Assembly: GCF_033110965.1 (NCBI RefSeq)
Contig: NZ_CP137003.1
Location: 2,852,001-2,916,000 of the forward strand
DNA length: 64,000 nucleotides
Reading direction: 5' to 3'
Source: Raineyella sp. LH-20
GTDB taxonomy: Bacteria > Actinomycetota > Actinomycetes > Propionibacteriales > Propionibacteriaceae
Made by a program: the position numbers and the translations under genes. Below, one piece after another: positions 8,272 through 47,493 of the stretch. The notes under the pieces are model-generated. The model ran no database searches and was not told the origin of the DNA. It worked only from the letters and a program-made list of their open reading frames with translations. The number at the start of each line of letters is the position of its first letter. Position 1 is the first letter of the stretch.

Positions 8272-9189
8272 ATGTCCGCCTCCCCTCCGCTCTACCGGCT
8301 GAACCCCGACGGGTGGGCCGACCTGGACGGGAAGCACCCGGTCCTGGTGCTGCTGCTCGACGGGGCGGGCAGTGCCGGTCAGCTCCAGGAGCTCGTCGGC
8401 GAGCATCTCCTGGAGCACTGTGCCCACCGTCCGCTGGTCCGCTTCGACCTCGACCTGCTCACCCAGTACGCCGATCGGCGCCCGACGCTCGACTTCGAGG
8501 ACGGGCGCTTCACCCGGGCCCCCTCGCCGGAGCTGGTGCTCTACGCGATGACCGACGCGGCGGGGGAGACCTTCCTCGCCCTGATCGGGCCTGAGCCGAT
8601 GTTGCTGTGGGAGCGGGCCGTTGCCGCCCTCGTGGAGCTGATCGCCGGCCTCGGCGTACGGCTCACGGTCGACGTCTCCGGCCTGCCGATGCGCGTCCCG
8701 CACACCCGGCCCCCGCAGGTGTTCACGCATTCCCCGGACCCGGAGCTGGTGCTGCGGCCGTGGGACGCGTTCCGGGGTGCGCTCTCGGTGACCGCCACCT
8801 TCGGTGCCTATCTGGAGGCGGTGCTCGCCGAGAAGGGGCAGCGGACGATGGGCATCGACGTGTGCGTGCCCTACTACCTCGGCAAGTCGGAGCACGTGGC
8901 GTCGGCCCTGGCAGCCCTCGAGATGATCCAGGCGTCCTGTGGCCTCAACCTGCTGCCCGGGTTGTTGGAGGACCAGGCGGTGGCGAACCGTGCCGACATC
9001 GACGCGCAGGTCGCGGCCACCGAGAACGGTCCGGCGGTAGTGTCCATCCTTGAGTCGAACTACGACGAGTTCCGCACCCTGGTGGGTGATCTGCCGAGCG
9101 CGGACGAGCTGGCCGCCGAGTTCGAACGTTTTCTGGCCGAACACGACCGTCGCCGCGACACCGGGGACGGTGACACCCCGGAAGGATGA
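8272..9189 (+). CDS. PAC2 family protein (proteasome assembly chaperone-like)
   Basis: The protein is 305 aa and soluble. It has the PAC2 organisation: an early strand HPVLVLLLDGAGSAGQ, a central FLALIGPEPMLLWERAVAALVELIAGLGV segment, and a late GIDVCVPYYLGKSEHVASALAALEMI segment followed by a C-terminal helix. Actinobacterial PAC2 proteins are ATP-grasp-neighbour or proteasome-assembly-like proteins without a settled role. Start: ATG 8272, seven bases after TAGTGT (8259-8264), so leaderless; a GTG at 8263 would lie inside that hexamer. It forms an operon with the thioesterase gene four bases downstream. Confidence 0.8.
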   Translation: MSASPPLYRLNPDGWADLDGKHPVLVLLLDGAGSAGQLQELVGEHLLEHCAHRPLVRFDLDLLTQYADRRPTLDFEDGRFTRAPSPELVLYAMTDAAGETFLALIGPEPMLLWERAVAALVELIAGLGVRLTVDVSGLPMRVPHTRPPQVFTHSPDPELVLRPWDAFRGALSVTATFGAYLEAVLAEKGQRTMGIDVCVPYYLGKSEHVASALAALEMIQASCGLNLLPGLLEDQAVANRADIDAQVAATENGPAVVSILESNYDEFRTLVGDLPSADELAAEFERFLAEHDRRRDTGDGDTPEG

Positions 9190-10182: not shown

Positions 10183-10225
10183 CGGCCGGGGTGGGCGGTG
10201 CGATGTGCACCGGCCACCCCGGCCG
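10183..10225. terminator. Bidirectional terminator between tesB and sigB
   Basis: The perfect 12-bp arms CGGCCGGGGTGG (10183-10194) and CCACCCCGGCCG (10214-10225) enclose a second 5-bp stem GGTGC/GCACC with loop GATGT. A pyrimidine run (TTCTCCCTCTC) follows on the plus strand. It lies in the spacer between two convergent genes, so it can serve both. Confidence 0.8.
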
Positions 10226-35116: not shown

Positions 35117-35136
35117 CTGAGCCGGCCAGGGCTCAG
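35117..35136. terminator. Weak hairpin between the RNA methyltransferase and metI
   Basis: CTGAGCC and GGCTCAG (7 bp) flank a 6-base loop at the convergent gene ends and overlap the metI stop codon. The stem is short, so the call is tentative. Confidence 0.35.
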
Positions 35137-35792
35137 TGGTGCATCACCCGGTGCGCCAGTCGGTTGCCGATCACCTGGGCGAGCTGGACGATCACGATGA
35201 TCACCACGACCGCGAGCAGGGTGACGGCGTAGTTGAACTGCTGGTAGCCGTAGGTGATCGCCAGGTCCCCGAGGCCGCCGCCACCGATGTAGCCGGCGAC
35301 CGCGGACATGTCGACCACACCGATGAAGACGAAGGTGTAGCCGAGGACCAGGGGCCCAGTGGACTCCCTGACCACCACGTCGAGCAGCACCCTGGTCCGG
35401 GAGGCGCCCATCGCCCGGGCGGCCTCGACCAGCCCGGCGTCGATCCCGACGAGGTTCTGTTCGACGATGCGGCCGACCACGACCGAGGCCATCAGGGTCA
35501 TCGGGAGGATCGCCGCTTGCGTTCCCACCGAGCGACCCGTCAGCGCGAGTGACAACGGTTGCACCAGGGAGATGAAGATGACGAACGGGATCGGCCGCAC
35601 GACGTTGACCAGCAGGTTGACAGCGGCGAACAGCACCCGGTGCTCCAGCAGGTTGCCCGGTCTGGTGGCGTAGAGCAGGATCCCGATGAGGGTCCCGACC
35701 ACCGCCCCGATCAGCATCGTCAGGGACACCATCTGCAGGGTCTGCGCCACGGACTGCCCCAGGAGCGGTCCCATGACGGTCCAGTCGATCAT
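35133..35792 (-). CDS. metI: MetI-type ABC transporter permease
   Basis: The protein is 219 aa with five to six helices. The permease signature EAARAMGASRTRVLLDVVVREST (EAA motif) docks the ATPase. The start TLQMVSLTMLIGAVVGTLIGILLYATRPG and the segment VVDMSAVAGYIGGGGLGDLAITYGYQQF match MetI closely. The ATG overlaps the metN stop by four bases. It is the last gene of the organosulfur operon, so the imported compound may be an organosulfur nutrient rather than methionine itself. Confidence 0.9.
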   Translation of the reverse strand: MIDWTVMGPLLGQSVAQTLQMVSLTMLIGAVVGTLIGILLYATRPGNLLEHRVLFAAVNLLVNVVRPIPFVIFISLVQPLSLALTGRSVGTQAAILPMTLMASVVVGRIVEQNLVGIDAGLVEAARAMGASRTRVLLDVVVRESTGPLVLGYTFVFIGVVDMSAVAGYIGGGGLGDLAITYGYQQFNYAVTLLAVVVIIVIVQLAQVIGNRLAHRVMHH

Positions 35793-36943
35793 CGTCGTCC
35801 GCCCTTCACCTCGAGGCGGTCAGGCGTGGCGACGAGAGCGGTGCCGCCCGGTCGTGGTGGCGCCGCATCAGCGTCGGGCGTCACGGCCGGCCAGACCGTC
35901 ACGCTGGTGCTCGCCGCTAGGTCGTCGACCAGTGCACGGACCGCGTCGGGTGGCCCGTCGAGTGCATAGGTCAGTGACCCGTACGGGCGCTCGGTGATCT
36001 CGACCACCGAGCCGAAGACGACGCCGCTGCTCACGCTCCGGTGGCGCGCCAGCGTCTCGAGCACCTGCTGCTGCGCGGACGGGCCGGCGGACGCGGCAGC
36101 GGAGTCGACGATGGACACCGTCACGAACGTGCCGGGATGGTGGGCCCGGAGCCGGTCGATCGTGGCCGGGGTCGGTGCGTCCTGGATCGTGGACTCGATG
36201 AAGCGTCGGGTCTCCGGGAACCGGGGGTGGGCGAAGACGTCGTAGACCGGGCCGTGGTCGAGCAGGCGGCCGTGTTCCATCACGGCGACGGTGTCGCAGA
36301 TCGAGCGTACGACGTGCATCTCGTGGGTGATCACGACGATCGTGGTGCCCGTGTCGCGGTTCACCCGCTGCAGCAGCTCGAGGACCTCCGTGGTGGTGTT
36401 CGGGTCCAGGGCACTGGTGGCCTCGTCGGCCAGCAGGAGGGACGGCCGGGTGGCGAGTGCCCGGGCGATCCCGACCCGTTGCTTCTGGCCGCCCGACAGC
36501 TGCCCGGGGAACCGGTGTGCTGCCCCGGACATGCCGACGTAGGCGAGCAGTTCGGCGACCCGGCGGGATCGCTCGGCCCTGTCCCAGCCGGCGATCCGCA
36601 GCGGGTACTCCACGTTCTGCTCGACCGTTCGCGATCCCAACAGGTTGAACTGCTGGAAGACCATGCCGATGGACGAGCGCAGGCGCCGCAGCTCCCGCTC
36701 GGTCAGCGACGTCACCTCGCGCCCGCCGACCTCCACCACACCGCTGTCGGGCAGTTCGAGGGCGTTGATCAGCCGGACGAGCGTCGACTTCCCGGCCCCG
36801 GAATACCCGATGATCCCGGTCACGCTACCGGCCTCGATGTCGAGACTGACGTCGTCGACAGCAGTGACCGCAGCGGCGGTCGAGGAGCGCCGTTGGGGCG
36901 TGAACGTCCTGGAGACGTGACGAAGGCTGACGATGGCCGTCAC
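35789..36943 (-). CDS. metN: MetN-type ABC transporter ATP-binding protein
   Basis: The protein is 384 aa. Walker A GYSGAGKST, Q-loop FQQFNLL, signature LSGGQKQRV, Walker B LLLADEATSALDP and switch His THEMHVV are present. A C-terminal NIL domain (about 270-350), the allosteric methionine-sensing domain of MetN, is present, followed by a Pro/Asp-rich tail. It energises import through MetI. The start is ATG 36943, 46 bases after metQ. Confidence 0.92.
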   Translation of the reverse strand: MTAIVSLRHVSRTFTPQRRSSTAAAVTAVDDVSLDIEAGSVTGIIGYSGAGKSTLVRLINALELPDSGVVEVGGREVTSLTERELRRLRSSIGMVFQQFNLLGSRTVEQNVEYPLRIAGWDRAERSRRVAELLAYVGMSGAAHRFPGQLSGGQKQRVGIARALATRPSLLLADEATSALDPNTTTEVLELLQRVNRDTGTTIVVITHEMHVVRSICDTVAVMEHGRLLDHGPVYDVFAHPRFPETRRFIESTIQDAPTPATIDRLRAHHPGTFVTVSIVDSAAASAGPSAQQQVLETLARHRSVSSGVVFGSVVEITERPYGSLTYALDGPPDAVRALVDDLAASTSVTVWPAVTPDADAAPPRPGGTALVATPDRLEVKGGRR

Positions 36944-36989
36944 AGGGGTCCTTCCGGGGCAGAGGAGTCGGAGATCGCGGGAGTGCGCG

Positions 36990-37895
36990 TCACTGCTTGG
37001 ATGCGATGCGCTGCTGGATCGTCGCCAGGCTGGCCTGGAGGGCGGCCGGGTCCTCCTTGAGGAAGGTTCCGGACCCCAAATCCTTGCGGACGGCTTCCTG
37101 GACCGTCGGATCGTGGTAGATCGCCGCGATCTTCAGCAGGGTCGGGTTGTCCTTGTCCTCCGGTCGCGCCACGAAAGCGTTGAGGTACGCCGCGGAGGCC
37201 TCGGCGGTCGGGTCGTCCTTCGCGAGGATGAGGTCCTGGGAGAGGCTGGCCGCCGTGGCGTAGTTGTTGTTCACGATGGCGCCGTCCAGCGAGTCGAGGT
37301 TCTGGGCGGTGACCTTGGCGTCGACCGGGACGACCTTCACCCGGGAGGCCGACGGGTCGATCTCGGCCGGCGTGGAGGTCGAATTGGCGCCGCCCCTGAC
37401 CGTGATCAGGCCCGCCTGCTCCAGGACGACGAGGGAGCGCGACAGGTTGGTCGGGTCGTTGGGCACGGCGATCTGCCCCCCGCTGGGGATCTCGGCGAGA
37501 CTGTGGTGCTTCTTCGAGTACAGCGGCAGCGGGTAGATGGCGGTCGAGCCGATCGGCTGGAGGGACTTGCCGTTCTTCACGTTGTACGTGGCCAGGTACT
37601 GCAGGTGCTGGAACTCGTTGAGGTCGAGCTGCTTCTGGTCCAGCGCCGGATTGGGCTGGTTGTAGTCGGAGAAGTTCTGGAACTCGACGGTGACGCCGGT
37701 CTGCTCTTTCACGGCGCGGGCGTAGACCTGCCAGTAGGGCTCCGCTCCGTCGGAGACGCCGATCCTGACGGTCTTCAGGTCGGTGGGCAGGCCCGCGGCC
37801 TTGGGCTCGGTGGCGTTCCCGGCGCTGCAGGCGGTGAGCAGCGCCAGGGACACGGCGACGACGGCGGCCTTCAGCAGGGCGATGGGCTTGGGCAT
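36990..37895 (-). CDS. metQ: MetQ/NlpA-type substrate-binding lipoprotein
   Basis: The protein is 301 aa. The signal peptide ends in a lipobox LLTAC (Cys22), so the protein is membrane-anchored outside the cell. The NlpA core is clear: VRIGVSDGAEPYW, DLNEFQHLQYLATYN, GGQIAVPNDPTNLSRSLVVLEQAGLI and GAIVNNNYA. It delivers substrate to MetNI. Start: ATG 37895 with AGGAAGAG. Placement downstream of three monooxygenase modules suggests an organosulfur or methionine-like ligand. Confidence 0.93.
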   Translation of the reverse strand: MPKPIALLKAAVVAVSLALLTACSAGNATEPKAAGLPTDLKTVRIGVSDGAEPYWQVYARAVKEQTGVTVEFQNFSDYNQPNPALDQKQLDLNEFQHLQYLATYNVKNGKSLQPIGSTAIYPLPLYSKKHHSLAEIPSGGQIAVPNDPTNLSRSLVVLEQAGLITVRGGANSTSTPAEIDPSASRVKVVPVDAKVTAQNLDSLDGAIVNNNYATAASLSQDLILAKDDPTAEASAAYLNAFVARPEDKDNPTLLKIAAIYHDPTVQEAVRKDLGSGTFLKEDPAALQASLATIQQRIASKQ

Positions 37896-37945
37896 GGTTT
37901 CTCTTCCTGTTCTTCTCGGGTGTTTCCCGGTGGGAGTGGGGGCGG

Positions 37946-39310
37946 TCAGTTGCCGGCGTACGCGCCGCGGTAGCGGGCGGCCGGGTGGCGATCGGGGAGC
38001 CGGTCGGTCCCGAAGATCCTGTGGCGCAGGGTGCCCGGCGCGTACGCCAGCTTGGCCAGGCCACGACGCTGGAGCGTGGGCAGCAGCAGGCGGTTGAACT
38101 CCTCGTACGTGCCGGGCAGGCGCCAGTTGATGACGTTGATGCCGTCCACGCCGGCGTCGCGGTAGTCGGCGAGGACGTCGGCGATCTGCTCGGGGGTGCC
38201 GCTGACCAGTCCGCGGCGCACCCGGCTGTTCACCAGGTCGCCCAGGGTGGGTTCGCGGCCGTCGACGGTCGCGCTCACCCAGTCGACGTGCCCGCGCCCG
38301 CCGTTGTTGGCGATCGCCCGCAGCGGGGTGTCGTCGGGCAGGTGCGAGCCGTCCGGCAGTGTCCCGAGGGCGGTGTGCAGCTGGTAGCCGAGGACCGACG
38401 CGTACGCCTCGTAGTCGGCCAACTTGGCCTCGACCTCGGCCTGATCCTCGCCGACGACGAAGGTCAGGCCCTGGAAGAAGCGCAGGTCGTCGGGCCGTCG
38501 GCCCAGCTCGGTGGCCAGGCGTCGCGTGGTGGCGATGTGCTCCCGGGCGACGTCAGGATCCGGAGTGGTGATGAAGACGGCCTCGGCATGACGAGCCGCG
38601 AAGGCGATGCCCCGAGCTGATCCGCCCGCCTGGAAGAGCAGCGGAGTGCGCTGCGGCGACGGTGCGACCAGATGCGGCCCCTCGACGCTGTACCGCGCAC
38701 TGCGGTGGTGGATCTTGTGCACCTTCGCCGGGTCGGCGTAACGATTGCCCACCCGATCCAGCACGACCGCGTCCTCGTCCCAGGATCCCTCCCAGAGCTT
38801 GTAGAGCACGTCGAGGTACTCATCGGCCCAGTCATAGCGAGCGTCGTGGTCCACCAGGCCGGGCAGGTCGAAGTTGCGCGCCGCGTTCTCCTGGGTGGAG
38901 GTGACGATGTTCCAGGCCACCCGTCCACCGGTGAGGTGGTCGAGGGTGGAGATCTGCCGGGCGAAGTTGAACGGCGGGTTCTGCATGATGTTCGACGTGT
39001 AGGCCAGGCCGATGTGCTCGGTGGCCAGCGCCAGCGCGCTGAGCAGCACCGCGGGGTCGTTGGACGGGATCTGCAGACCCTCGGTCACGTTGTCGGCGAA
39101 TCGGCCGTCCGCAGGCCCGTAGAGGCCGGTGACGTCGGCGAAGAACATCGCGTCGAAGAGACCCTGCTCGAGCGTACGGGCCAGATCGACCCAGAACCGC
39201 AGGTCGTTGAACTCGACCTGGTGCGCGTCGGGGTGACGCCACTGTCCGTGGTGGATGTGGCTGGGAGTGTTCATCAGGAAGGCGTTGAAGGCGAGAGGGT
39301 GGTCGGCCAT
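37946..39310 (-). CDS. LLM-class flavin-dependent monooxygenase, NtaA/SnaA/DszA family
   Basis: The protein is 454 aa, TIM-barrel FMNH2-dependent type. Family hallmarks are NAFLMNTPSHIHHGQWRHPD at the start, LARTLEQGLFDAMFFADVTG, STLDHLTGGRVAWNIVTS, PSPQRTPLLFQAGGSARG and the ending YAPGTLRHRIFGTDRLPDRHPA. Such enzymes oxidise sulfones, chelators or similar small molecules using reduced flavin from a partner reductase, here presumably SsuE. Start: ATG 39310 with AGGA nearby. It is a paralogue of the 42203-43663 gene in the same operon. Confidence 0.9.
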   Translation of the reverse strand: MADHPLAFNAFLMNTPSHIHHGQWRHPDAHQVEFNDLRFWVDLARTLEQGLFDAMFFADVTGLYGPADGRFADNVTEGLQIPSNDPAVLLSALALATEHIGLAYTSNIMQNPPFNFARQISTLDHLTGGRVAWNIVTSTQENAARNFDLPGLVDHDARYDWADEYLDVLYKLWEGSWDEDAVVLDRVGNRYADPAKVHKIHHRSARYSVEGPHLVAPSPQRTPLLFQAGGSARGIAFAARHAEAVFITTPDPDVAREHIATTRRLATELGRRPDDLRFFQGLTFVVGEDQAEVEAKLADYEAYASVLGYQLHTALGTLPDGSHLPDDTPLRAIANNGGRGHVDWVSATVDGREPTLGDLVNSRVRRGLVSGTPEQIADVLADYRDAGVDGINVINWRLPGTYEEFNRLLLPTLQRRGLAKLAYAPGTLRHRIFGTDRLPDRHPAARYRGAYAGN

Positions 39311-39430
39311 CGGGAGGTCCTGTCGGCGGGATCGGAGTGGGGCCGTACGGTGCGGGCGTCGTCCGTACGACGGTGGGTGGCTGGCCGCACCGCTCAGGTG
39401 CGGCCACCGCACGGTCAGGCGGGTGGGCGG

Positions 39431-40678
39431 TCAGGCGGTGGGCGCCGGGGCCGTCAGGACCGGTGGGATCGGGGCCAGCGCATTGTGGATGAAGGCGCTC
39501 ACCGGGACGCCGTTCAGCGCGTGGTCGCCCACGGCCAGGGTCTGGTGGAAGCCGGGGTTGTTCGAGCCGATCGTGCGGGCGTTGCGCCACAGCCGGTCCA
39601 GCTGCCGTCCGCTGGCCGTCGCCGAGGCGCCGCCGACCTCGAAGATCTCGGAGGTGATCCGCAGGACGTCCTCGATGACGACCGGCCACAACTGCGCGAC
39701 GTACGCATCGACGTCATCGAAGACGGCCTCGTCCAGGTGCCCGGCCTGGTGCTGGTCGAGGGCGCTGCCGATCCGACGGGCCGCCTCGACGACGGCGGCG
39801 CGCACCAGGCCGGTGCGGCCCCGGACGGAGCCCACAGCGTGCAGGGCGGCCGGGTCCTGGGTGGGGGCGACGGTCGGGTTCCAGGCGTTGCGGCCCTTCT
39901 GCCGGAGGAAAGCGATGATCTCGGCCGTCGCCGCCTCGGCGATGCCGACCAGGCCCGCCAGCAGGTCGATCTGGTAGATCGGCCAGATGAGGGTCTGTTG
40001 GCTGCCGAGCGGCACGAAGAACCGGGGGTCGACCGGCACGTCGACGAAGGTCGTGGTGCCCGAGGCAGTGAGCCGCTGCCCGAAACCGTCCCAGTCGTCC
40101 ACGGTGGTGACACCCGGGTCGTCCGTCCTGGCCGCGAGATGGATCAGGGTGGTGTCGCCGTCCGCGCCGACCAACTCCGCGGTGACCCGTGTCCAGTCGG
40201 AGTAGAGGGTCCCGGTGGTGTAGTACTTTGTGCCGCTCAGCAGGAATCGGCCGTCGGTCTCGACCACCCGGGTGGAGGGATTGCCGTAGTTGCCGGTCTT
40301 CTCCGTCTCCGCGTTGCCGACCAGGGCTCCGGCCGCGATCTCCTGGATCCAGAACGCCCGGAAGTCCGCGTCCGGCGACACCAGCACGTCCTCGACGAAT
40401 CCGATGTGGCCGCGCAGTGCCTGGGCGATGTTGCTGTCGGCGGTCGCGACGTCGATCAGCACCTCGACGAGCTGCTCGAAGGAGGCGCCGAAGCCACCCC
40501 GGTCGGCCGGGATCCTCAGCCGGCCGAAGCCGACGGCGGCCAGCTCACGGATCTCGTCGAACGGCAGGGTCCGGTCCCGTTCCCGGTCGACCGCACCGGC
40601 GTGGATGCGCGCCAGCACCGGCGCGAAGTGCGCCCGCAGCTGGTCGGTGGTGAGCGGGGTCTGCAGGATCTCGGTCAT
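39431..40678 (-). CDS. Acyl-CoA dehydrogenase-fold flavin oxidoreductase (DszC/SfnB-like)
   Basis: The protein is 415 aa. The N-terminal helical domain has GFGRLRIPADRGGFGASFEQLVEVL, and the beta domain has TGTKYYTTGTLYSDW and DDWDGFGQRLTASGTT. The C-terminal helices have EVGGASAT and LWRNARTIGSNNP. These features place it with flavin-dependent sulfur monooxygenases of the DszC group rather than true acyl-CoA dehydrogenases. It probably uses FMNH2 or FAD for N- or S-oxygenation. Start: ATG 40678, with a weak AGUGAG. Confidence 0.85.
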   Translation of the reverse strand: MTEILQTPLTTDQLRAHFAPVLARIHAGAVDRERDRTLPFDEIRELAAVGFGRLRIPADRGGFGASFEQLVEVLIDVATADSNIAQALRGHIGFVEDVLVSPDADFRAFWIQEIAAGALVGNAETEKTGNYGNPSTRVVETDGRFLLSGTKYYTTGTLYSDWTRVTAELVGADGDTTLIHLAARTDDPGVTTVDDWDGFGQRLTASGTTTFVDVPVDPRFFVPLGSQQTLIWPIYQIDLLAGLVGIAEAATAEIIAFLRQKGRNAWNPTVAPTQDPAALHAVGSVRGRTGLVRAAVVEAARRIGSALDQHQAGHLDEAVFDDVDAYVAQLWPVVIEDVLRITSEIFEVGGASATASGRQLDRLWRNARTIGSNNPGFHQTLAVGDHALNGVPVSAFIHNALAPIPPVLTAPAPTA

Positions 40679-40727
40679 CGGGGTCTCACTTTCGGGCGGA
40701 GCAGGGGCTTCGGATGGCGGGGTTTCC

Positions 40728-40768
40728 GGTGGAGTGGGCTTGTGGTGGAGCGGGCTTGTGGTGGAAGC
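40728..40768. repeat. 16-bp tandem repeat between two oxidoreductase genes
   Basis: GGTGGAGTGGGCTTGT (40728) is followed by a one-mismatch copy (40744) and a partial third copy (40760), in the 133-bp gap inside the operon. Confidence 0.85.
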
Positions 40769-40811
40769 AGCGGCGGGACGGGGCGTGGCCCGCACCCGAC
40801 CGGCAGGGTGG

Positions 40812-42122
40812 TCAGCTGCCGACCGGGAACCCGCTGTCCGGGGCGGCGGCCGCAGCGCTGCTGCTGGTCGTAGCCGTAGCCGCAGCCGCGCCCGCACCGG
40901 GGGCGGTCCCGACCGTGTACTGGACGGCGCGATGGCCGCCGTTGAGCAGGTGCGATCCGGCGAGCCGGGCACGGTAGATGAGCGGGTTGTGTTGGGCCAG
41001 GACCCGCGCGTTGCGCCAGTGCCGGTCCAGTCCGCGCGCCCTGCTGGTCTGCGAGGCGCCGCCGACCTCGAACAGCTGGGTCGCGGCGCGCAGCACACTC
41101 GGCGCGATGGCGAGCTGGGCCTGGTAGGCGCTGATGTCGATCGCCGTGTAGTCGTCGTCGGTCGCGATGCCCGCCGCCACGCGGTGCTGGACCTCGGCCA
41201 ACTCGTCGACGAACGCCAGGAAGACCGCGCGCGCCGCGTACGCGGCGGCCGACAGCTCGCCGATGACCTGTTGCACCTGGGGGTCGTGTCGCGGCAATGG
41301 GGTGTTCGCGTGGCTGTAGGAACGGGTCCGGCCGGCCACGTACGCCGTGGCGTCGCGGACGATCGACTGTGCGATCCCGGCGAGGTTGGCCAGGTGGACG
41401 GACTGGGCCAGCGCCTGGGCGTGGCTCGCCGCCGTGCTGTAGGGGCTCGGCACGACCTCGTCGGCGGCGACCGGGACGCCGGTGAAGACTGTCGTGCCGG
41501 ACGCCGTCAGTCGCTGGCCGAAGCCGTCCCAGTCGTCCGTCATCGTGACGCCGGGCGCGTCCGACGGGACGAAGGCCCACACGCTGCGCCCCTCCTCGTC
41601 CTCGGCATGGACCTGGATCCAGTCGGCGTACAGACTTCCGGTGCTGTAGTACTTCGTTCCGTCCAGCCGGTAGGCGTCGCCGTCGTGGGACACCCGGGTG
41701 GTGACCTGACCGGCCCGGTTGTCGACCTCGGTGACGGCGTTGCCGACCACCGCTCCGGCCCCGATCCGGTGCAACCACCGGGCGCGTCGTTCGTCCTGCG
41801 GAGCGACCAGAAGCTGTTCGACGCACAGCAGATGGGCCCGCAGGGCCTGCACCAGGTTGGGATCGGCGGTGCCGAGCTCGATGACGAAGGGGTAGAACTC
41901 CGCCAGTCCGAGGCCGGCCCCGCCGAACTCCGTCGGGATCCGCAGGGTGGTGTAGCCGGCGGCGCGGAGCCGGTCGATCGCGTCGTGGTCGATCACGTGG
42001 TCGGCTTCCCGGGCGACGGCGCCGGCGGCGAGCTCGTTGAACACCGGGATCAGGCGCTGTGCCGCGGCCAGCAGCGCGGGGCGAGGGGCGGGGCCGGTGA
42101 GGCGGCGGAGCTGTGCGGTCAT
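40812..42122 (-). CDS. Acyl-CoA dehydrogenase-fold flavin oxidoreductase (DszC/SfnB-like), second copy
   Basis: The protein is 436 aa. It has the same plan as the previous gene: LRAAGYTTLRIPTEFGGAGLGLAEFYPF, GTKYYSTGSLYADWIQVHAEDEEG, DDWDGFGQRLTASGTTVF and a C-terminal EVGGASQTSRARGLDRHWRNARVLAQHNP. It ends in an Ala/Thr/Ser-rich tail of about 35 residues not seen in its paralogue. It is predicted to oxygenate an organosulfur substrate with reduced flavin. Start: ATG 42122 with GGAGAA upstream. Confidence 0.85.
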   Translation of the reverse strand: MTAQLRRLTGPAPRPALLAAAQRLIPVFNELAAGAVAREADHVIDHDAIDRLRAAGYTTLRIPTEFGGAGLGLAEFYPFVIELGTADPNLVQALRAHLLCVEQLLVAPQDERRARWLHRIGAGAVVGNAVTEVDNRAGQVTTRVSHDGDAYRLDGTKYYSTGSLYADWIQVHAEDEEGRSVWAFVPSDAPGVTMTDDWDGFGQRLTASGTTVFTGVPVAADEVVPSPYSTAASHAQALAQSVHLANLAGIAQSIVRDATAYVAGRTRSYSHANTPLPRHDPQVQQVIGELSAAAYAARAVFLAFVDELAEVQHRVAAGIATDDDYTAIDISAYQAQLAIAPSVLRAATQLFEVGGASQTSRARGLDRHWRNARVLAQHNPLIYRARLAGSHLLNGGHRAVQYTVGTAPGAGAAAATATTSSSAAAAAPDSGFPVGS

Positions 42123-42202
42123 GGGGTTCTCCAGGGGTGGGAAGAGGGTGGGAGCCTCAGCGGGGCGGACCCGCTGGTCGGGAGCGGTCGGGACCGGGTG
42201 GG

Positions 42203-43663
42203 TCAGGGTCGGGCGATCCCGGCGAGCTGGGAGGTGATCGACTCCAGGCGGTCCGAGGCGGTGGACAGGTCGCCGCCGATCCGGAACCGGCTGCCGCGAT
42301 GCTCCGTCGGCAGCCGGTCGCCGCGTCCGAACAGCTTGTGACGCAGCGTTCCGGGGGTGTAGGCGGTCTTGTAGCGCCCGAGCTTCTGCAGCTCCGGCAC
42401 CACGAACTCGACGATGTCCTCGAACGTGCCGGGCGTGATGGCGTACGCCAGGTTGAAGCCGTCGACGTCGGTCTCGTCCTGCAGCGCAGCCAGCCTGCGG
42501 GCCACGGTGGCTCCCGAGCCGACGAGGATCGGTCCGAATCCGCCCACACCGATGTACTCGCTGAAGTCCCGGACCGTCCACGGACGGCCGTCCTCCCGCC
42601 GGGCGCCGAGGATGGTCTCCACCGCCGACCGGATGGCGTTGGACTCCACGTTGCCGACCGGCTCGTCCAGGTCGAACCGTGACAGGTCGACCCCGGTCCA
42701 TCCGGACAGCAGCACCAGCGCACCCTCCGGATCGGCGTAGCGGCGGTACTCCTCGAACTTCGCCCACGCCTCCTCATCGGTCGCGGCCGTGATGATCGTG
42801 TTCATGGCGAAGACCCGGATGGCCTGCGGGTCCCGTCCGGCCGCCAGGGCGGCGGCCCGGACCTTCCGGACGCTGTCGCGCATGATGCCGACGGTCGGTG
42901 AGCTGATGAAGACGGCCTCCGCGTTCTCGCCGGCGAATGTCACGCCCCGTGGCGAGGTGCCTGCCTGGTAGACGACCGGCATCCGCTGTGGGCTCGGCTC
43001 GGTGATCGCGATGCCGGGCACGTCGAACCAGCGGCCGTGGTGGTTGATCGCGTGGACCTTCGCCGGGTCGACGAACCCCTTCTCGCCGTCGTCGAGCACC
43101 GCGTCGTCCTCCCAGGAGCCCTCGAGCAGCTTGTAGATCACCTCGAGGTACTCGTCGGCATGGTCGTAGCGCTCGTCGTGGGACATCTGGTCGCGGTGAC
43201 CCAGGTTCTGTGCCGCGGAGGGGAGATAGCCGGTGACGACGTTCCACCCGACCCGGCCCTCGGTGAGATGGTCGAGGGTCGCCAGGCGCCGGGCGAACGG
43301 GTAGGGGTGCTCGTACGCCGTGCCCGCCGTCACCCCGAAGCCGAGGTGCTCGGTGACCGCTGCCATGGCCGAGACCAGCAGGATCGGATCGTTGACCGGG
43401 ACCTGGGCGCCGGTCCGCAGCGGACCCTCGTTGGTCGCCCCGTACACGTCGTACGTGCCGAGGACATCGGCGAGGAAGAGGCCGTCGAACAGGCCCCGCT
43501 CGAGGGTGCGGGCCAGGTCGGTCCAGTAGCCGAGGGTGGTGTACGTACGGGCCCGGTCGTCGGGATGACGCCACAGGCCGGGGGACTGATGGGCGACGCA
43601 GTTCATGTCGAACGCGTTGAAGAGGATCTCGCGCCCGGGGGTCCGGGCGGGTCGGTCGGTCAT
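42203..43663 (-). CDS. LLM-class flavin-dependent monooxygenase, NtaA/SnaA/DszA family, second copy
   Basis: The protein is 486 aa. Hallmarks are NAFDMNCVAHQSPGLWRHPDD, LARTLERGLFDGLFLADVLGTYDVYG, ATLDHLTEGRVGWNVVTGYLPSAAQNLG, PSPQRMPVVYQAGTSPRG and a C-terminal YTPGTLRHKLFGRGDRLPTEHRG. It is about 30 residues longer than its operon paralogue, mostly at the C-terminus. Predicted sulfone- or nitrilotriacetate-type monooxygenase using FMNH2. It starts 149 bases after sfnB. Confidence 0.9.
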   Translation of the reverse strand: MTDRPARTPGREILFNAFDMNCVAHQSPGLWRHPDDRARTYTTLGYWTDLARTLERGLFDGLFLADVLGTYDVYGATNEGPLRTGAQVPVNDPILLVSAMAAVTEHLGFGVTAGTAYEHPYPFARRLATLDHLTEGRVGWNVVTGYLPSAAQNLGHRDQMSHDERYDHADEYLEVIYKLLEGSWEDDAVLDDGEKGFVDPAKVHAINHHGRWFDVPGIAITEPSPQRMPVVYQAGTSPRGVTFAGENAEAVFISSPTVGIMRDSVRKVRAAALAAGRDPQAIRVFAMNTIITAATDEEAWAKFEEYRRYADPEGALVLLSGWTGVDLSRFDLDEPVGNVESNAIRSAVETILGARREDGRPWTVRDFSEYIGVGGFGPILVGSGATVARRLAALQDETDVDGFNLAYAITPGTFEDIVEFVVPELQKLGRYKTAYTPGTLRHKLFGRGDRLPTEHRGSRFRIGGDLSTASDRLESITSQLAGIARP

Positions 43664-43812
43664 CGGGGCCTCTGTCGTGGTGGATCAGGTGTCGGCGGGC
43701 CGGCAGGTGCTGATGGGGACGGGTGCTGCTGGGGCAGGTGGTTCTGGGCAGGGCGGTGCTGGGCGGAGGACCGCTGGACGGCTGCGGCGGGCGAACGCGA
43801 GGCCGAGCGCGA

Positions 43813-45039
43813 TCACAGCGTCCCGGTGCGTGGCGGTCGTTCGCCGGTGAGCCGGTGTCTGCCGAGGTGCTGGTACTTCCAGCGCACCGGGTCGTGCAGC
43901 GTGTGGGTGCGGGCGTTGCGCCAGTGCCGGTCATAGTCGTACGTACGTCCCGCGGCGCGGGTGCCGGAGATCTCCAAGCCGCCCTCGGCCGCCGCCAGGG
44001 CCGCCTCGGTGGCGAGGATCTTGAGTGCCGCGACCGCCAGGGTCGCCTCGGTGGCCAGGTCTTCGTCCGGGGTCGCCTGCACGGCGTCGACCGCCTCGGC
44101 GGCCACTCGCAGTTGGGCCGTGGCGGCGCGGAGTCGCACCTCGAGCTCGCCCACCCGCTGGATGGTGAGGGGGTCGTCGACGGCGCGTGCCACCGCGGCC
44201 TCGTGATGCGGGCGCGCCGTCGTCCGGACGAACGCCGCCGCCTCGGCCAGTGCCCCCTCCGCGATCCCGGCGTCAATGGCGCCGTGCAACAACTGGGCGT
44301 ACGCCCCGTAGCCGTACGGTCCGGACACTGCACGAGCGCGGCTGATCACCCGGTGGGCGGGCACGGCGACGTCCTCGAGGTGCACCTGGCCGCTGGCCGT
44401 GGTGCGCTGGCCGATGCCGTCCCAGTCGTCGATCACGGTCACGCCCGGGGCGTCGCGAGGCACGAAGGCGACCACCTGTTCATCGGTGTCGGCCAGGCCG
44501 GCGAGTACCGGGATCCAGGTCGCGAACAAGGCGCCGGTGGCGTAGCCCTTGCGGCCGGTCAGCCGGTAGCCGCCGGCGGCGTCCGGGCTGAGCCGGGTGG
44601 TGACCGAGAGAGCGGTCGGACCACCGAGTTCGGACTGGGCGTTGCCGAGCCGGGCTCCCTGCAACACGGCGGAGAAGATCTCCTCCTGCAGGTCTCGTGG
44701 CGCGGCAAGTCGCACCAGGTTGAGGTACACGAAGTGGGAGTGAGGGATCTGGGCGATGTTCGGATCGGCGGTGGCCAGGATCCGGAGCACCTCGGCCACG
44801 GTCGCGGCGCTGGCGCCGGGGCCGCCGAAGGCTGTCGGGACTCCCAGCGCCAGGAGGCCGCTGGCGCTCAGGGACTCGATCTCCGTTGCCGGGAGCTCCC
44901 GGTGGAGGTCACGGTGCGCCGCCCCGTCCGTGTACGTCGCCGCGAGGCCCCGGGCGATCGTCCGTGCGCTGTCCGCATCGAGGACGGGAACGGTCGGCGC
45001 GTCCTGTCCGGTCCTCGGCGGGATGTCGGTCGTCGTCAT
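43813..45039 (-). CDS. sfnB: SfnB-family sulfur acquisition oxidoreductase
   Basis: The protein is 408 aa, acyl-CoA dehydrogenase fold. Distinctive SfnB features are LGVPTAFGGPGASAATVAEVLRILATADPNIAQIPHSHFVYLN, TGRKGYATGALFATWIPVLA, DDWDGIGQRTTASGQVHLEDV and the C-terminal HWRNARTHTLHDPVRWKYQHLG. SfnB proteins appear in sulfate-starvation regulons for sulfone use. It starts nine bases after ssuD. The ending sequence separates it from the two DszC-like paralogues downstream. Confidence 0.87.
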   Translation of the reverse strand: MTTTDIPPRTGQDAPTVPVLDADSARTIARGLAATYTDGAAHRDLHRELPATEIESLSASGLLALGVPTAFGGPGASAATVAEVLRILATADPNIAQIPHSHFVYLNLVRLAAPRDLQEEIFSAVLQGARLGNAQSELGGPTALSVTTRLSPDAAGGYRLTGRKGYATGALFATWIPVLAGLADTDEQVVAFVPRDAPGVTVIDDWDGIGQRTTASGQVHLEDVAVPAHRVISRARAVSGPYGYGAYAQLLHGAIDAGIAEGALAEAAAFVRTTARPHHEAAVARAVDDPLTIQRVGELEVRLRAATAQLRVAAEAVDAVQATPDEDLATEATLAVAALKILATEAALAAAEGGLEISGTRAAGRTYDYDRHWRNARTHTLHDPVRWKYQHLGRHRLTGERPPRTGTL

Positions 45040-45047
45040 GTCCGGGC

Positions 45048-46196
45048 TCAGAGCGCCGCAGCGAACGGTACATGGCTGACCGGTGCGGCGCCGGCCCGGC
45101 CGGGGTGCTTCCACAGGCCGCGCTCCTCGAGGATCGGCAGGACACCCTCACCGAACCAGTAGGCCTCCTCGAGATGCGGGTAGCCGCTCAGCACGAACTT
45201 CGTCAGGCCCAGCTCGGCGTACTCCTCGAGTCGGTCCGCGACCTCGGTGTGCGACCCGACGAGCGCCGTGCCGGCGCCGCCGCGGACGAGTCCGACGCCC
45301 GCCCACAGGTTGGGGGAGACCTCGAGTCCGTCCTTGGTGCCCTGGTTGAGGTCCAGCATCCGTCGCTGTCCCTCGGACTCGGAGCGTCGGAGCCCTGCCT
45401 GCACCCGGGCGATCTGCTCGGGGGAGACACCGTCGAGCAGCCGCTGGGCCTCGGCCCACGCCGCCGCCGAGGTGTCCCGGGTGATCACGTGCAGCCGGAT
45501 GCCGAACTCCACGGTGCGGCCCCGTTCCTCCGCGAGACCACGGATCCACTCGACCTTGCGCCGCACCGCCGCGGGCGGTTCGCCCCAGGTCAGGTAGACG
45601 TCGCAGTTGTCGGCGAAGACAGGCCCCGCCGGCCCGGAGGATCCGCCGAAATAGAGCGGTGGCCGCGGGTCGGGCCGGCGCTGCAGGGTGGCGTCCTCGA
45701 TGTCGAAGTACGCGCCCCGGAAGCTGACCGGCTGGTCGGACTCCCAGAGCTGGTGCACGATCCGCAGGAACTCGTCGCAGCGGGCGTACCGGCTCGCCTT
45801 GTCCTCGTGGTCGCCGTAGGCCCGCTGTTCGTGCGACTCGCCGCCGGTGACCACGTTGAGCAGCAGCCGCCCCCCGGACTGCCACTGGAAGGTGGCGGCC
45901 ATCTGGGCGGCGAGGGTAGGGCTGATCGCCCCGGGCCGTAGGGCGATCAGGAACTTGATCCGCTCGGTGATGCCCGCGAGCATGGCGGCCGTCACCCAGG
46001 CGTCCTCGCACCAGGCGCCGGTCGGCACGAGCAGGCCCTCGAAGCCCAGGTCGTCGGCGGCGGTGGCGATCCGGGACAAGTAGCTGAGGGTGGCCGGGCG
46101 ATCCTTCGAGGCGGTCCGGGCCGGCTGCCCGTGGCCGCCGCCGACGATCCCGCGGGAGTCTCCGTAGGTCGGCAGGAACCAGTTGATGTCGAGCAT
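45048..46196 (-). CDS. ssuD: FMNH2-dependent alkanesulfonate monooxygenase
   Basis: The protein is 382 aa. It aligns by eye with SsuD throughout: INWFLPTYGDSR, GFEGLLVPTGAWCEDAWVTAAML, FLIALRPGAISPTLAAQMAAT, LYFGGSSGPAG, DVYLTWGEPPAAV, LHVITRDT, SPNLWAGVGLVRGGAGTALVG and LSGYPHLEEAYWFGE. The conserved active-site Cys and the Arg-rich lid region are present. It releases sulfite from alkanesulfonates using FMNH2 and O2. Start: ATG 46196 with GAGAGGA. SsuE, 18 bases upstream, supplies reduced flavin. Confidence 0.96.
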   Translation of the reverse strand: MLDINWFLPTYGDSRGIVGGGHGQPARTASKDRPATLSYLSRIATAADDLGFEGLLVPTGAWCEDAWVTAAMLAGITERIKFLIALRPGAISPTLAAQMAATFQWQSGGRLLLNVVTGGESHEQRAYGDHEDKASRYARCDEFLRIVHQLWESDQPVSFRGAYFDIEDATLQRRPDPRPPLYFGGSSGPAGPVFADNCDVYLTWGEPPAAVRRKVEWIRGLAEERGRTVEFGIRLHVITRDTSAAAWAEAQRLLDGVSPEQIARVQAGLRRSESEGQRRMLDLNQGTKDGLEVSPNLWAGVGLVRGGAGTALVGSHTEVADRLEEYAELGLTKFVLSGYPHLEEAYWFGEGVLPILEERGLWKHPGRAGAAPVSHVPFAAAL

Positions 46197-46214
46197 GGTG
46201 GGGTCCTCTCGGTG

Positions 46215-46760
46215 TCAGGCGGCGGCGGAGACGTACGGCAGGGCGGCGGAGAACGCCTCGACGGCGGCGTCGAGCCGTTCGACGGCCGATTCGTGCAGGC
46301 GTACGGTGCCGTCCGGCTGGACCGTGATCTGGGTGTCGGTGACGAGGTGGCTCTGCACGACGTGGCGGGCGCCGAGGGCCTGGAGTACCGGCCGCAGGGC
46401 GTAGTCGAGGGCCAGAGCGTGGGCGAGTGAGCCGCTGGTCGCCAGTGGCAGCACGGTCTTGCCGTCGAGCGCCGCCTGCGGCAGCAGGTCCAGCCAGGCC
46501 TTGAGGGCTCCGGAGAAGGAGGCCTTGTAGACCGGTGTGACGATGACCAGGCCGTCGGCCCCGGCGACTGCGTCTTGGCTCGCCCGGATGGCCGGATCTC
46601 CGAAGTCGGCGTGCAGCAGCGCGTCGGCCGGCAGGTCCCGGACGGAGAGGTGGTCCACGTGGTGGCCTTCGCCGGTCAGCTGGGTGCCGACGAGCCGGGC
46701 GAGGGCGTTTCCGCGGGAGGTGGCCGACGGACTGCCGGAGACGGTGAGCAGCTGGGTCAT
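46215..46760 (-). CDS. ssuE: NAD(P)H-dependent FMN reductase SsuE
   Basis: The protein is 181 aa. Flavodoxin-like FMN site VSGSPSATSRGNALA at the start, GLVIVTPVYKASFSGALKAWLDLLP in the middle and LPLATSGSLAHALALDYALRPVLQALGA later are standard for SsuE/MsuE. It generates FMNH2 for SsuD and, as the only reductase in the operon, probably for the five other flavin-dependent oxygenases. It is the first gene of the ten-gene operon. Start: ATG 46760 with GAAAGGG. Confidence 0.95.
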   Translation of the reverse strand: MTQLLTVSGSPSATSRGNALARLVGTQLTGEGHHVDHLSVRDLPADALLHADFGDPAIRASQDAVAGADGLVIVTPVYKASFSGALKAWLDLLPQAALDGKTVLPLATSGSLAHALALDYALRPVLQALGARHVVQSHLVTDTQITVQPDGTVRLHESAVERLDAAVEAFSAALPYVSAAA

Positions 46761-46801
46761 GGGGCGCCCTTTCGAGGGAGGCGGTGGGCTTCGTGACCTC
46801 G

Positions 46802-46848
46802 ACGCTAGCGGGAACAATAAGGTGAGTCAATACATCAGTAAAGATGTA
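46802..46848 (-). promoter_or_regulatory. Promoter and operator candidate of the ssu operon
   Basis: On the minus strand TTGACT (46830-46825), 17 bases, then TAGCGT (46807-46802) form a near-consensus promoter about 40 bases before ssuE. Abutting the -35 on its upstream side is the perfect palindrome TACATC-N6-GATGTA (46831-46848). The position suits an activator or a repressor that blocks polymerase. Confidence 0.7.
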
Positions 46849-46900
46849 GGAATAAGAGGTGAAATCGGTGTGTGGATGCGGTCGGCTGTGCCGGGTCGCG

Positions 46901-46957
46901 GCACGCAGGGGTAGAGGTGGCACGCAGGGGTAGAGGTGGCACGCAGGGTAGAGCTGA
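46901..46957. repeat. Three 19-bp tandem repeats upstream of the ssu promoter
   Basis: GCACGCAGGGGTAGAGGTG at 46901 and 46920, and a slightly shortened third copy from 46939. Non-coding. Confidence 0.9.
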
Positions 46958-46958
46958 G

Positions 46959-47055
46959 GCTCGGTGGTTCGCCCAGGTGTCAGGTGGGGGCGAGGCTCAG
47001 TGGTTCCGCCCAGGCATCAGGGTGGAGGTGGTCCTCAGTGGTTCGCCCAGGCGTC
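46959..47055. repeat. About 37-bp imperfect repeats derived from the rrf2 3' end
   Basis: The core GTGGTTCGCCCAGG(C/T)RTC is found at 46964, 47000 and 47038. The last copy is the genuine C-terminus and stop of the Rrf2 gene on the minus strand; the other two are degenerate copies downstream of the stop. Confidence 0.8.
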
Positions 47056-47493
47056 CCCGTCAGTGGTCAGGTCGGTGACCAGTTGGTTGAAGTCGCCGCT
47101 GGTCAGTTGCGCGAGCGTGGTCGAGTCGAGGACCGCCCGCAGCGACGCCCGGACGGCGACCCACAGTGTGGGTAGGTGCTCGGTGGCGCCGCGGTACTCG
47201 GTGTCCTGCGGGCGCAGGCCCCGGACCTCCCAGAGGGGGCCGTCCACGGCGCGCATGATGTCGCCGATCGTGATCGTGTCGGCGCCGCGCCCGAGGAAGT
47301 AGCCGCCGCGGGAGCCGCGCAAGCTGGTGATCAGACCGGCTCGGCGCAGGTCGGCGAAGATCGCCTCCATGAACTTGCGGGGCAGGTCCTCCTGCTGGGC
47401 GACGGAGTCCAGGGTGATCGGCTCGGCCGGATCGGCGGTCGACAGGTGCACCATCGCGCGGACGGCGTACTCGGTGCGCGCAGAGAGGTTCAC
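47035..47493 (-). CDS. Rrf2-family transcriptional regulator (cysteine-free, CymR-like)
   Basis: The protein is 152 aa. The winged helix begins MNLSARTEYAVRAMVHLSTAD, with recognition region DSVAQQEDLPRKFMEAIFADLRRAGLITSLRGSRGGYFLG. The sensor half contains no cysteine, so it cannot bind an Fe-S cluster as IscR or NsrR do. It is closer in this respect to CymR-type sulfur regulators. It lies immediately upstream of, and in the same direction as, the ssuE operon and probably controls it. Start: GTG 47493, six bases after TACTAT (minus strand, 47505-47500), so leaderless. Confidence 0.85.
   Translation of the reverse strand: MNLSARTEYAVRAMVHLSTADPAEPITLDSVAQQEDLPRKFMEAIFADLRRAGLITSLRGSRGGYFLGRGADTITIGDIMRAVDGPLWEVRGLRPQDTEYRGATEHLPTLWVAVRASLRAVLDSTTLAQLTSGDFNQLVTDLTTDGDAWANH

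Follow-up and report, generated by a model that had tools for sequence, protein, structure and literature searches.

A sulfur-poor flavin oxygenase operon with a MetNIQ importer in Raineyella sp. LH-20 is a probable organosulfur-scavenging system

In Corynebacterium glutamicum, a flavin reductase, the seu monooxygenases and SsuD are encoded in one run of genes, ssuI-seuABC-ssuD2 (PMC1779776). In the dimethyl sulfide pathway of Acinetobacter baylyi (Dms1-3, MsuD/SfnG, MsuC, SsuD and MsuE), one flavin reductase feeds ACAD-fold enzymes that form sulfoxides and sulfones as well as LLM enzymes that cleave sulfones and sulfonates, ending at sulfite (PMC13352529). These two systems are the closest known to an operon of ten genes, ssuE-ssuD-ACAD1-LLM2-ACAD2-ACAD3-LLM3-metQ-metN-metI, in Raineyella sp. 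LH-20. The operon lies in the 64,000-nucleotide stretch of DNA analysed here (the window; C1:2,852,001-2,916,000 of the 3.63-Mb, single-contig host genome, G000). With a probability of about 0.75, we consider it a sulfur-limitation system that frees sulfur from organosulfur compounds by oxidation and is co-regulated with a second, canonical operon, ssuCBA-ssuD2. Organosulfur scavenging had already been proposed in the first-pass annotation, and this part of the proposal is well supported because the enzymes are depleted in sulfur, a promoter element is shared with ssuCBA-ssuD2 and A. baylyi provides a biochemical precedent.

All ten genes are co-oriented; they occupy positions 46760 to 35133 of the minus strand, and the gaps between them, from ssuE to metI, measure 18, 8, 149, 80, 133, 120, 50, 46 and -4 bp. 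The earlier description of ten genes on one strand with gaps below 150 bp was therefore borne out in coordinates and families, the largest gap being 149 bp. The genes and the element in front of them are:

46802..46850, minus strand: promoter/regulatory element CCTAC...TTT...ATTGACTCACCTTAT (46850-46817), with -35 TTGACT, -10 TAGCGT and a 17-bp spacer; kept in G000 and in the congeners G001 and G002
46215..46760, minus strand: ssuE, flavin mononucleotide (FMN) reductase, 181 aa, no Cys, no internal Met (TIGR03567 213 bits, cut-off 164)
45048..46196, minus strand: ssuD, LLM of the alkanesulfonate monooxygenase type (best families NF001939 447 and TIGR03565 437 bits, both under cut-off)
43813..45039, minus strand: ACAD1, flavin oxygenase of the SfnB family (group D), RTHTLHDP kept (TIGR04022 479 bits)
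42203..43663, minus strand: LLM2, monooxygenase of the DmoA/LadA clade (tree; 53% identity to DmoA, 6ak1)
40812..42122, minus strand: ACAD2, DszC-fold oxygenase, His391 equivalent kept (RVLAQHNP; TIGR04022 267 bits)
39431..40678, minus strand: ACAD3, DszC fold, His391 equivalent replaced by Asn (RTIGSNNP; TIGR04022 223 bits)
37946..39310, minus strand: LLM3, LLM of the NtaA/DszA superfamily (TIGR03860 469 bits; 46% to HcbA1, 6lr1)
36990..37895, minus strand: metQ-type lipoprotein with a lipobox-like LLTAC motif (PF03180 210 bits; aligns with solved MetQ)
35789..36943, minus strand: metN-type ATPase with NIL domain (TIGR02314 284.5 bits, cut-off 499.7; PF09383 29.1 bits, cut-off 24)
35133..35792, minus strand: metI-type permease (NF008049 149 bits; PF00528)

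The operon resembles the C. glutamicum run in combining a flavin reductase, putatively seu-like monooxygenases and SsuD but adds ACAD1, LLM3 and MetNIQ, the comparison being one of gene order. Corynebacterium lubricantis has the same order LLM2-ACAD2-ACAD3 with ssuD downstream. With A. baylyi the operon shares a single reductase, S-oxygenases of group D, C-S cleaving enzymes of group C and SsuD as the last enzyme; it differs in lacking an SfnG equivalog, in place of which it has two LLMs of the DmoA/NtaA type, and in being arranged as one operon with an importer. By analogy, the operon would hold the same division of labour.

Enzymes synthesized when sulfur is scarce tend to contain little Cys and Met, and the sulfur-starvation oxygenases of Gordonia NB4-1Y, which are raised on organosulfur, are also poor in both residues (PMC7661421). 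The background for the Raineyella proteins consisted of 84 gene predictions (120 aa or longer) in stretches of the host genome rather than of the whole proteome. The seven enzymes together contain 18 Cys and Met residues compared to 61 expected, and none of 100,000 random seven-gene sets was as low. SsuE, ACAD1 and ACAD3 have no Cys or Met at all beyond the start residue, while SsuD and LLM2 are mildly low. In MetQ, the Cys of the LLTAC motif is the only such residue, with no internal Met (0.3%, compared to 1.8% in the other MetQ of the genome); MetN and MetI show no depletion. The background genes lowest in Cys and Met include ssuA and ssuB, which belong to the ssu operon elsewhere in the genome, and this position of known sulfur genes among the lowest validates the test.

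The second line of evidence is the region upstream of ssuE, where the pattern CCTAY(N3)TTT(N)ST(N2)T(N2)ATTGAC(N4)CTTAT, spanning the -35 motif TTGAC, is kept in G000, G001 and G002. A "single strong promoter" had been assigned to this region. Its strength was not confirmed, as no site reached the threshold in a scan for the sigma-70 consensus; what stands is the pair TTGACT-17-TAGCGT at 46830-46802, which overlaps the 34-bp element and is conserved in three species. Within the operon, the coding strand carries no terminator, and a riboswitch or any other Rfam element is absent from the window. The same 34-bp element is found in the promoter of the canonical ssuCBA-ssuD2 operon at C1:800.7-804.6 kb of the host genome (SsuA, TIGR01728 184 bits, cut-off 163.5). 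Four congeneric genomes were searched for the pattern, allowing up to three mismatches, and for its reverse as control. G000 and G001 each have two sites, G002 has three and G003 none, while the reversed pattern gave no match. Wherever the element occurs (G000, G001 and G002), one site precedes this operon and another precedes ssuCBA-ssuD2. Four of these sites, namely the two of G000 and those in front of this operon in G001 and G002, served to build the pattern and are not independent matches; those before ssuCBA-ssuD2 in G001 and G002 are. The third site of G002, with three mismatches, precedes a further operon that is poor in sulfur and encodes a Dpp-type ABC transporter and three LLMs. Taken together, the DNA sequence by itself delimits what may be a small regulon for sulfur scavenging, made up of this operon and ssuCBA-ssuD2 and marked by the element, and no description of such a regulon or element was found in the literature searched. 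The additional G002 operon (C1:1,637,900-1,646,900; L025/L126) adjoins rrf2 and encodes an SBP_bac_5 protein, permeases, a fused ATPase and the three LLMs.

Gene order was compared among relatives using gene calls from a simple codon-score script. It is conserved: two congeners share the order of the seven enzymes, G001 with metQNI at the same site and G002 with the seven enzymes only. Together with the substitution ratios of the enzymes (see below), this speaks against a chance arrangement. The metQNI genes of G002 stand alone at C1:1.10 Mb (58, 60 and 56% identity). MetNIQ is hence separable from the seven enzymes. In G003, which belongs to the same genus, acn-thiC-rrf2-trmA are adjacent, and the roughly 88 bp between rrf2 and trmA represent the empty site. 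The operon is therefore a presence/absence unit. The nearest named relative found is a metagenome-assembled genome (MAG) labelled Propionibacteriaceae. In the G001 locus (L024), acad1 near 8580, llm2 near 10195 and acn near 2478 are each split over two frames, which are probably assembly indels and not real frameshifts.

The family labels assigned earlier hold at the level of families, but not always at that of equivalogs. The SfnB cut-off (TIGR04022, 430.9 bits) is passed by ACAD1 only (479.4 bits), with ACAD2 and ACAD3 failing it, and MetQ and MetN are divergent. SsuD remains under its equivalog cut-offs (TIGR03565, 437 vs 518; NF001939, 447 vs 510). SsuD2 of the host's canonical ssuCBA operon likewise stays below them (418 and 431 bits, respectively), and for this reason the cut-offs may be somewhat strict for this lineage. 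LLM2 shares 53% identity with DmoA and 48% with LadA, and in the tree forms a supported sister clade of DmoA; here, however, the enzyme is part of a putative multi-enzyme sulfur operon and not of a DmoA-DmoB pair. The LLM2 clade also holds LLMs encoded near MetNIQ from loci L081, L083 and Pantoea. LLM3 groups with HcbA1, its nearest solved relative.

With the dszABC (4S) pathway the operon shares the DszC fold of its ACADs and the DszA superfamily of its LLMs. Unlike that pathway, none of the ten genes corresponds to DszB, and the best score against the DszC equivalog is 218 bits at a cut-off of 850. Among the DszA residues His20 and His316 (PMC11134501), alignment of LLM3 to BdsA showed the equivalent of His20 to be present and that of His316 not to be kept. 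In DszC, His391 helps O2 protonation en route to the C4a-hydroperoxide (PMC11134501). The alignment placed an equivalent His in ACAD1 and ACAD2, and an Asn in ACAD3, the same in all five orthologues (those of G000, G001 and G002, the Propionibacteriaceae MAG and C. lubricantis). All other homologues checked carry His at this position, except the frame-broken ACAD1 copy of G001. The ratio of nonsynonymous to synonymous substitutions (dN/dS) ranges from 0.15 to 0.33 across all seven enzymes, and compared to G002 amounts to 0.33 for ACAD3 and 0.28 for ACAD2. With a dN/dS of 0.33, ACAD3 does not appear to be decaying. It may represent a conserved ACAD subclass without the oxygen-activating histidine of DszC, which is directly testable. 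A sample of 396 genomes from the phylum yielded no additional ACAD3 orthologue of comparable similarity, and a search for loci related to ACAD2 returned three only, one of them a weak match.

The best model is a stepwise route from S-oxygenation via C-S cleavage to sulfite release. In this model, the operon would be transcribed from the promoter in front of ssuE, and SsuE would provide reduced FMN (FMNH2) for all oxygenases. ACAD1 and ACAD2 would catalyze S-oxygenation, either from thioether to sulfoxide to sulfone or from sulfinate to sulfonate, LLM2 and LLM3 would cleave the C-S bond, and SsuD would set free sulfite from the resulting sulfonate. MetNIQ would be an accessory importer whose ligand is probably an amino acid resembling methionine, and ACAD3 a conserved non-canonical partner. 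We infer each of the catalytic reactions as well as the substrates and a link, if any, between MetNIQ and the enzymes, deriving the enzyme chain from family membership.

Several points weigh against a sulfur-limitation system of this kind. The sequence of an LLM does not settle its substrate, since within this family HcbA1 dehalogenates and LadA oxidises alkanes. None of the proteins encoded in the operon reaches the cut-off for SfnG (TIGR04021, 382.95), the best being SsuD at 140.5 bits. The operon of G002 does without MetNIQ. In addition, we infer co-transcription of the ten genes from their gaps alone, and co-regulation with ssuCBA-ssuD2, including its direction (activation or repression), from the shared element.

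The two alternatives with the most weight are variants of the sulfur-limitation reading and can hold jointly with it, so that our confidences do not sum to one. One concerns the importer: MetNIQ may merely be a co-regulated uptake system for (oxidised) methionine in sulfur starvation, with the enzymes acting on sulfonates imported by SsuABC and on compounds that are volatile or diffuse, for example dimethyl sulfide or sulfone. We rate this at a little below even odds. It would be in line with the separate metQNI of G002, the presence of SsuABC in the genome, the good alignment of MetQ with methionine-binding proteins, the closeness of LLM2 to the dimethyl sulfide enzyme DmoA, and a Pantoea sp. 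At-9b cassette that has MetNIQ where the P. agglomerans version has none. However, MetNIQ-type importers adjoin such enzymes more often than expected by chance, and the MetQs found beside them come from different clades (see below). A closer coupling, in which a sulfur amino acid in oxidised or methylated form, such as methionine sulfone or S-methylcysteine, enters through MetNIQ and its methyl-sulfur is freed by the DmoA-clade LLM together with the ACAD2-ACAD3 pair, the His-less ACAD3 being structural or regulatory, appears doubtful to us. If true, this would amount to desulfurisation of sulfur amino acids without lyases.

The other variant concerns the enzymes. LLM2-ACAD2-ACAD3 may be counterparts of SeuA-SeuB-SeuC, an assumption that we base on the seu families and on the gene order of C. 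lubricantis, where LLM2-ACAD2-ACAD3-x-ssuD occur at 73, 56, 48 and 54% identity. The operon might then be of the seu type, opening sulfonate esters for SsuD, which we regard as possible, though rather unlikely. Within the C. glutamicum run cg1147 (ssuI)-cg1156 (ssuD2), the seuB and seuC genes are designated sulfonate-ester monooxygenases (PMC1779776). Orthology to SeuABC would, however, follow from gene order and not from sequence, and the operon has two extra oxygenases. Finally, the enzymes might mainly oxidise non-sulfur substrates (alkanes, halogenated compounds or amines, as do LadA, HcbA1 and NtaA), their link to sulfur being incidental. The proximity of LLM3 to HcbA1 and of LLM2 to LadA would fit, but the sulfur-depleted proteins, the element shared with ssuCBA-ssuD2 and the presence of ssuE-ssuD within the operon make this highly improbable.

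As to the identity of the importer, its subunits and the NIL domain were recognized above cut-off (PF03180, PF00005 with PF09383, and PF00528), but the equivalog cut-offs for MetN (284.5 vs 499.7) and the MetQ/NlpA subfamily (142.5 vs 228.85) were not reached. The FQH, PND..N..R and VNNNYA segments of MetQ align with those of solved methionine-binding MetQ proteins. Presumably, these segments line the ligand pocket, and a methionine-like ligand is plausible. The statements in the first-pass annotation that a MetQ-type protein is present "instead of SsuABC" and that the pairing with MetNIQ is "unusual" did not hold. The former is wrong for the organism, which has ssuCBA-ssuD2, and the latter is contradicted by MetNIQ adjoining such enzymes in other actinobacteria, Pantoea and Rhizobium. 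In Rhizobium leguminosarum, msuE-metQ-metN-metI adjoin an LLM gene. The plasmid-borne cassette of Pantoea sp. At-9b consists of ssuD, an oxidoreductase, an LLM, MetNIQ, an MFS gene and an ACAD; it has the same kinds of enzymes with MetNIQ, which is optional there also, but differs in gene order, a neighbouring regulator of the sigma-54 type and a MetQ of another clade. Of the 41 metQ genes in a class-wide sample of 30 genomes, seven, from four genomes, were located within 10 kb of a gene matching the SfnB model, with about 0.35 expected, a rough estimate as the genomes are related and the figure was computed after the pattern had been seen.

In the tree, MetQ of the window groups with a stand-alone MetQ of Tsukamurella, apart from those of family f7 (L081, L083, L085) and of the Pantoea cluster. 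This suggests that MetQ may have been recruited separately into such clusters, several forks of the tree being weak. The same tree, again with some weak forks, lends no support to the idea that the MetQs of all these clusters go back to one source. Locus L091 (G160) contains two LLM3-type genes, one LLM2-type and one ACAD2-type gene with another ABC transporter in the place of MetNIQ, and thus the type of importer varies between such cassettes. The importer hence appears to be an exchangeable part of these cassettes, and substrate tests should treat importer and enzymes separately.

A candidate regulator is encoded upstream of the operon:

47035..47493, minus strand: Rrf2-family regulator, candidate (CymR NF047409 96 bits, cut-off 195)

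The protein has no cysteines. Its best equivalog is CymR, at 95.9 bits below the cut-off but ahead of IscR at 83. The gene is the sole match of its search in G000 and is kept beside the operon site in relatives. Dedicated control of the operon by Rrf2 was not established, as G003 keeps rrf2 without operon or element; that Rrf2 reads the element is only a hypothesis. In other genomes of the family (L112-L114, L116), Rrf2 homologues adjoin genes of the sulfite exporter family TauE/SafE, hinting at a possible role in sulfur metabolism. The final codons of rrf2 (CCTGGGCGAACCACTGAG) are imperfectly repeated twice just 3' of its stop (window positions ~46960-47060). Between rrf2 and the ssuE promoter (~46895-46943), a unit of roughly 19 bp is repeated in tandem (CTGCGTGCCACCTCTACCC, around three copies); most of this repeat is missing in G001. 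Elsewhere in the host genome, C1:1,190,000-1,200,000 (L078) harbours a further two-component flavin system of a CE1758-family LLM gene and a CE1759-family FMN reductase gene.

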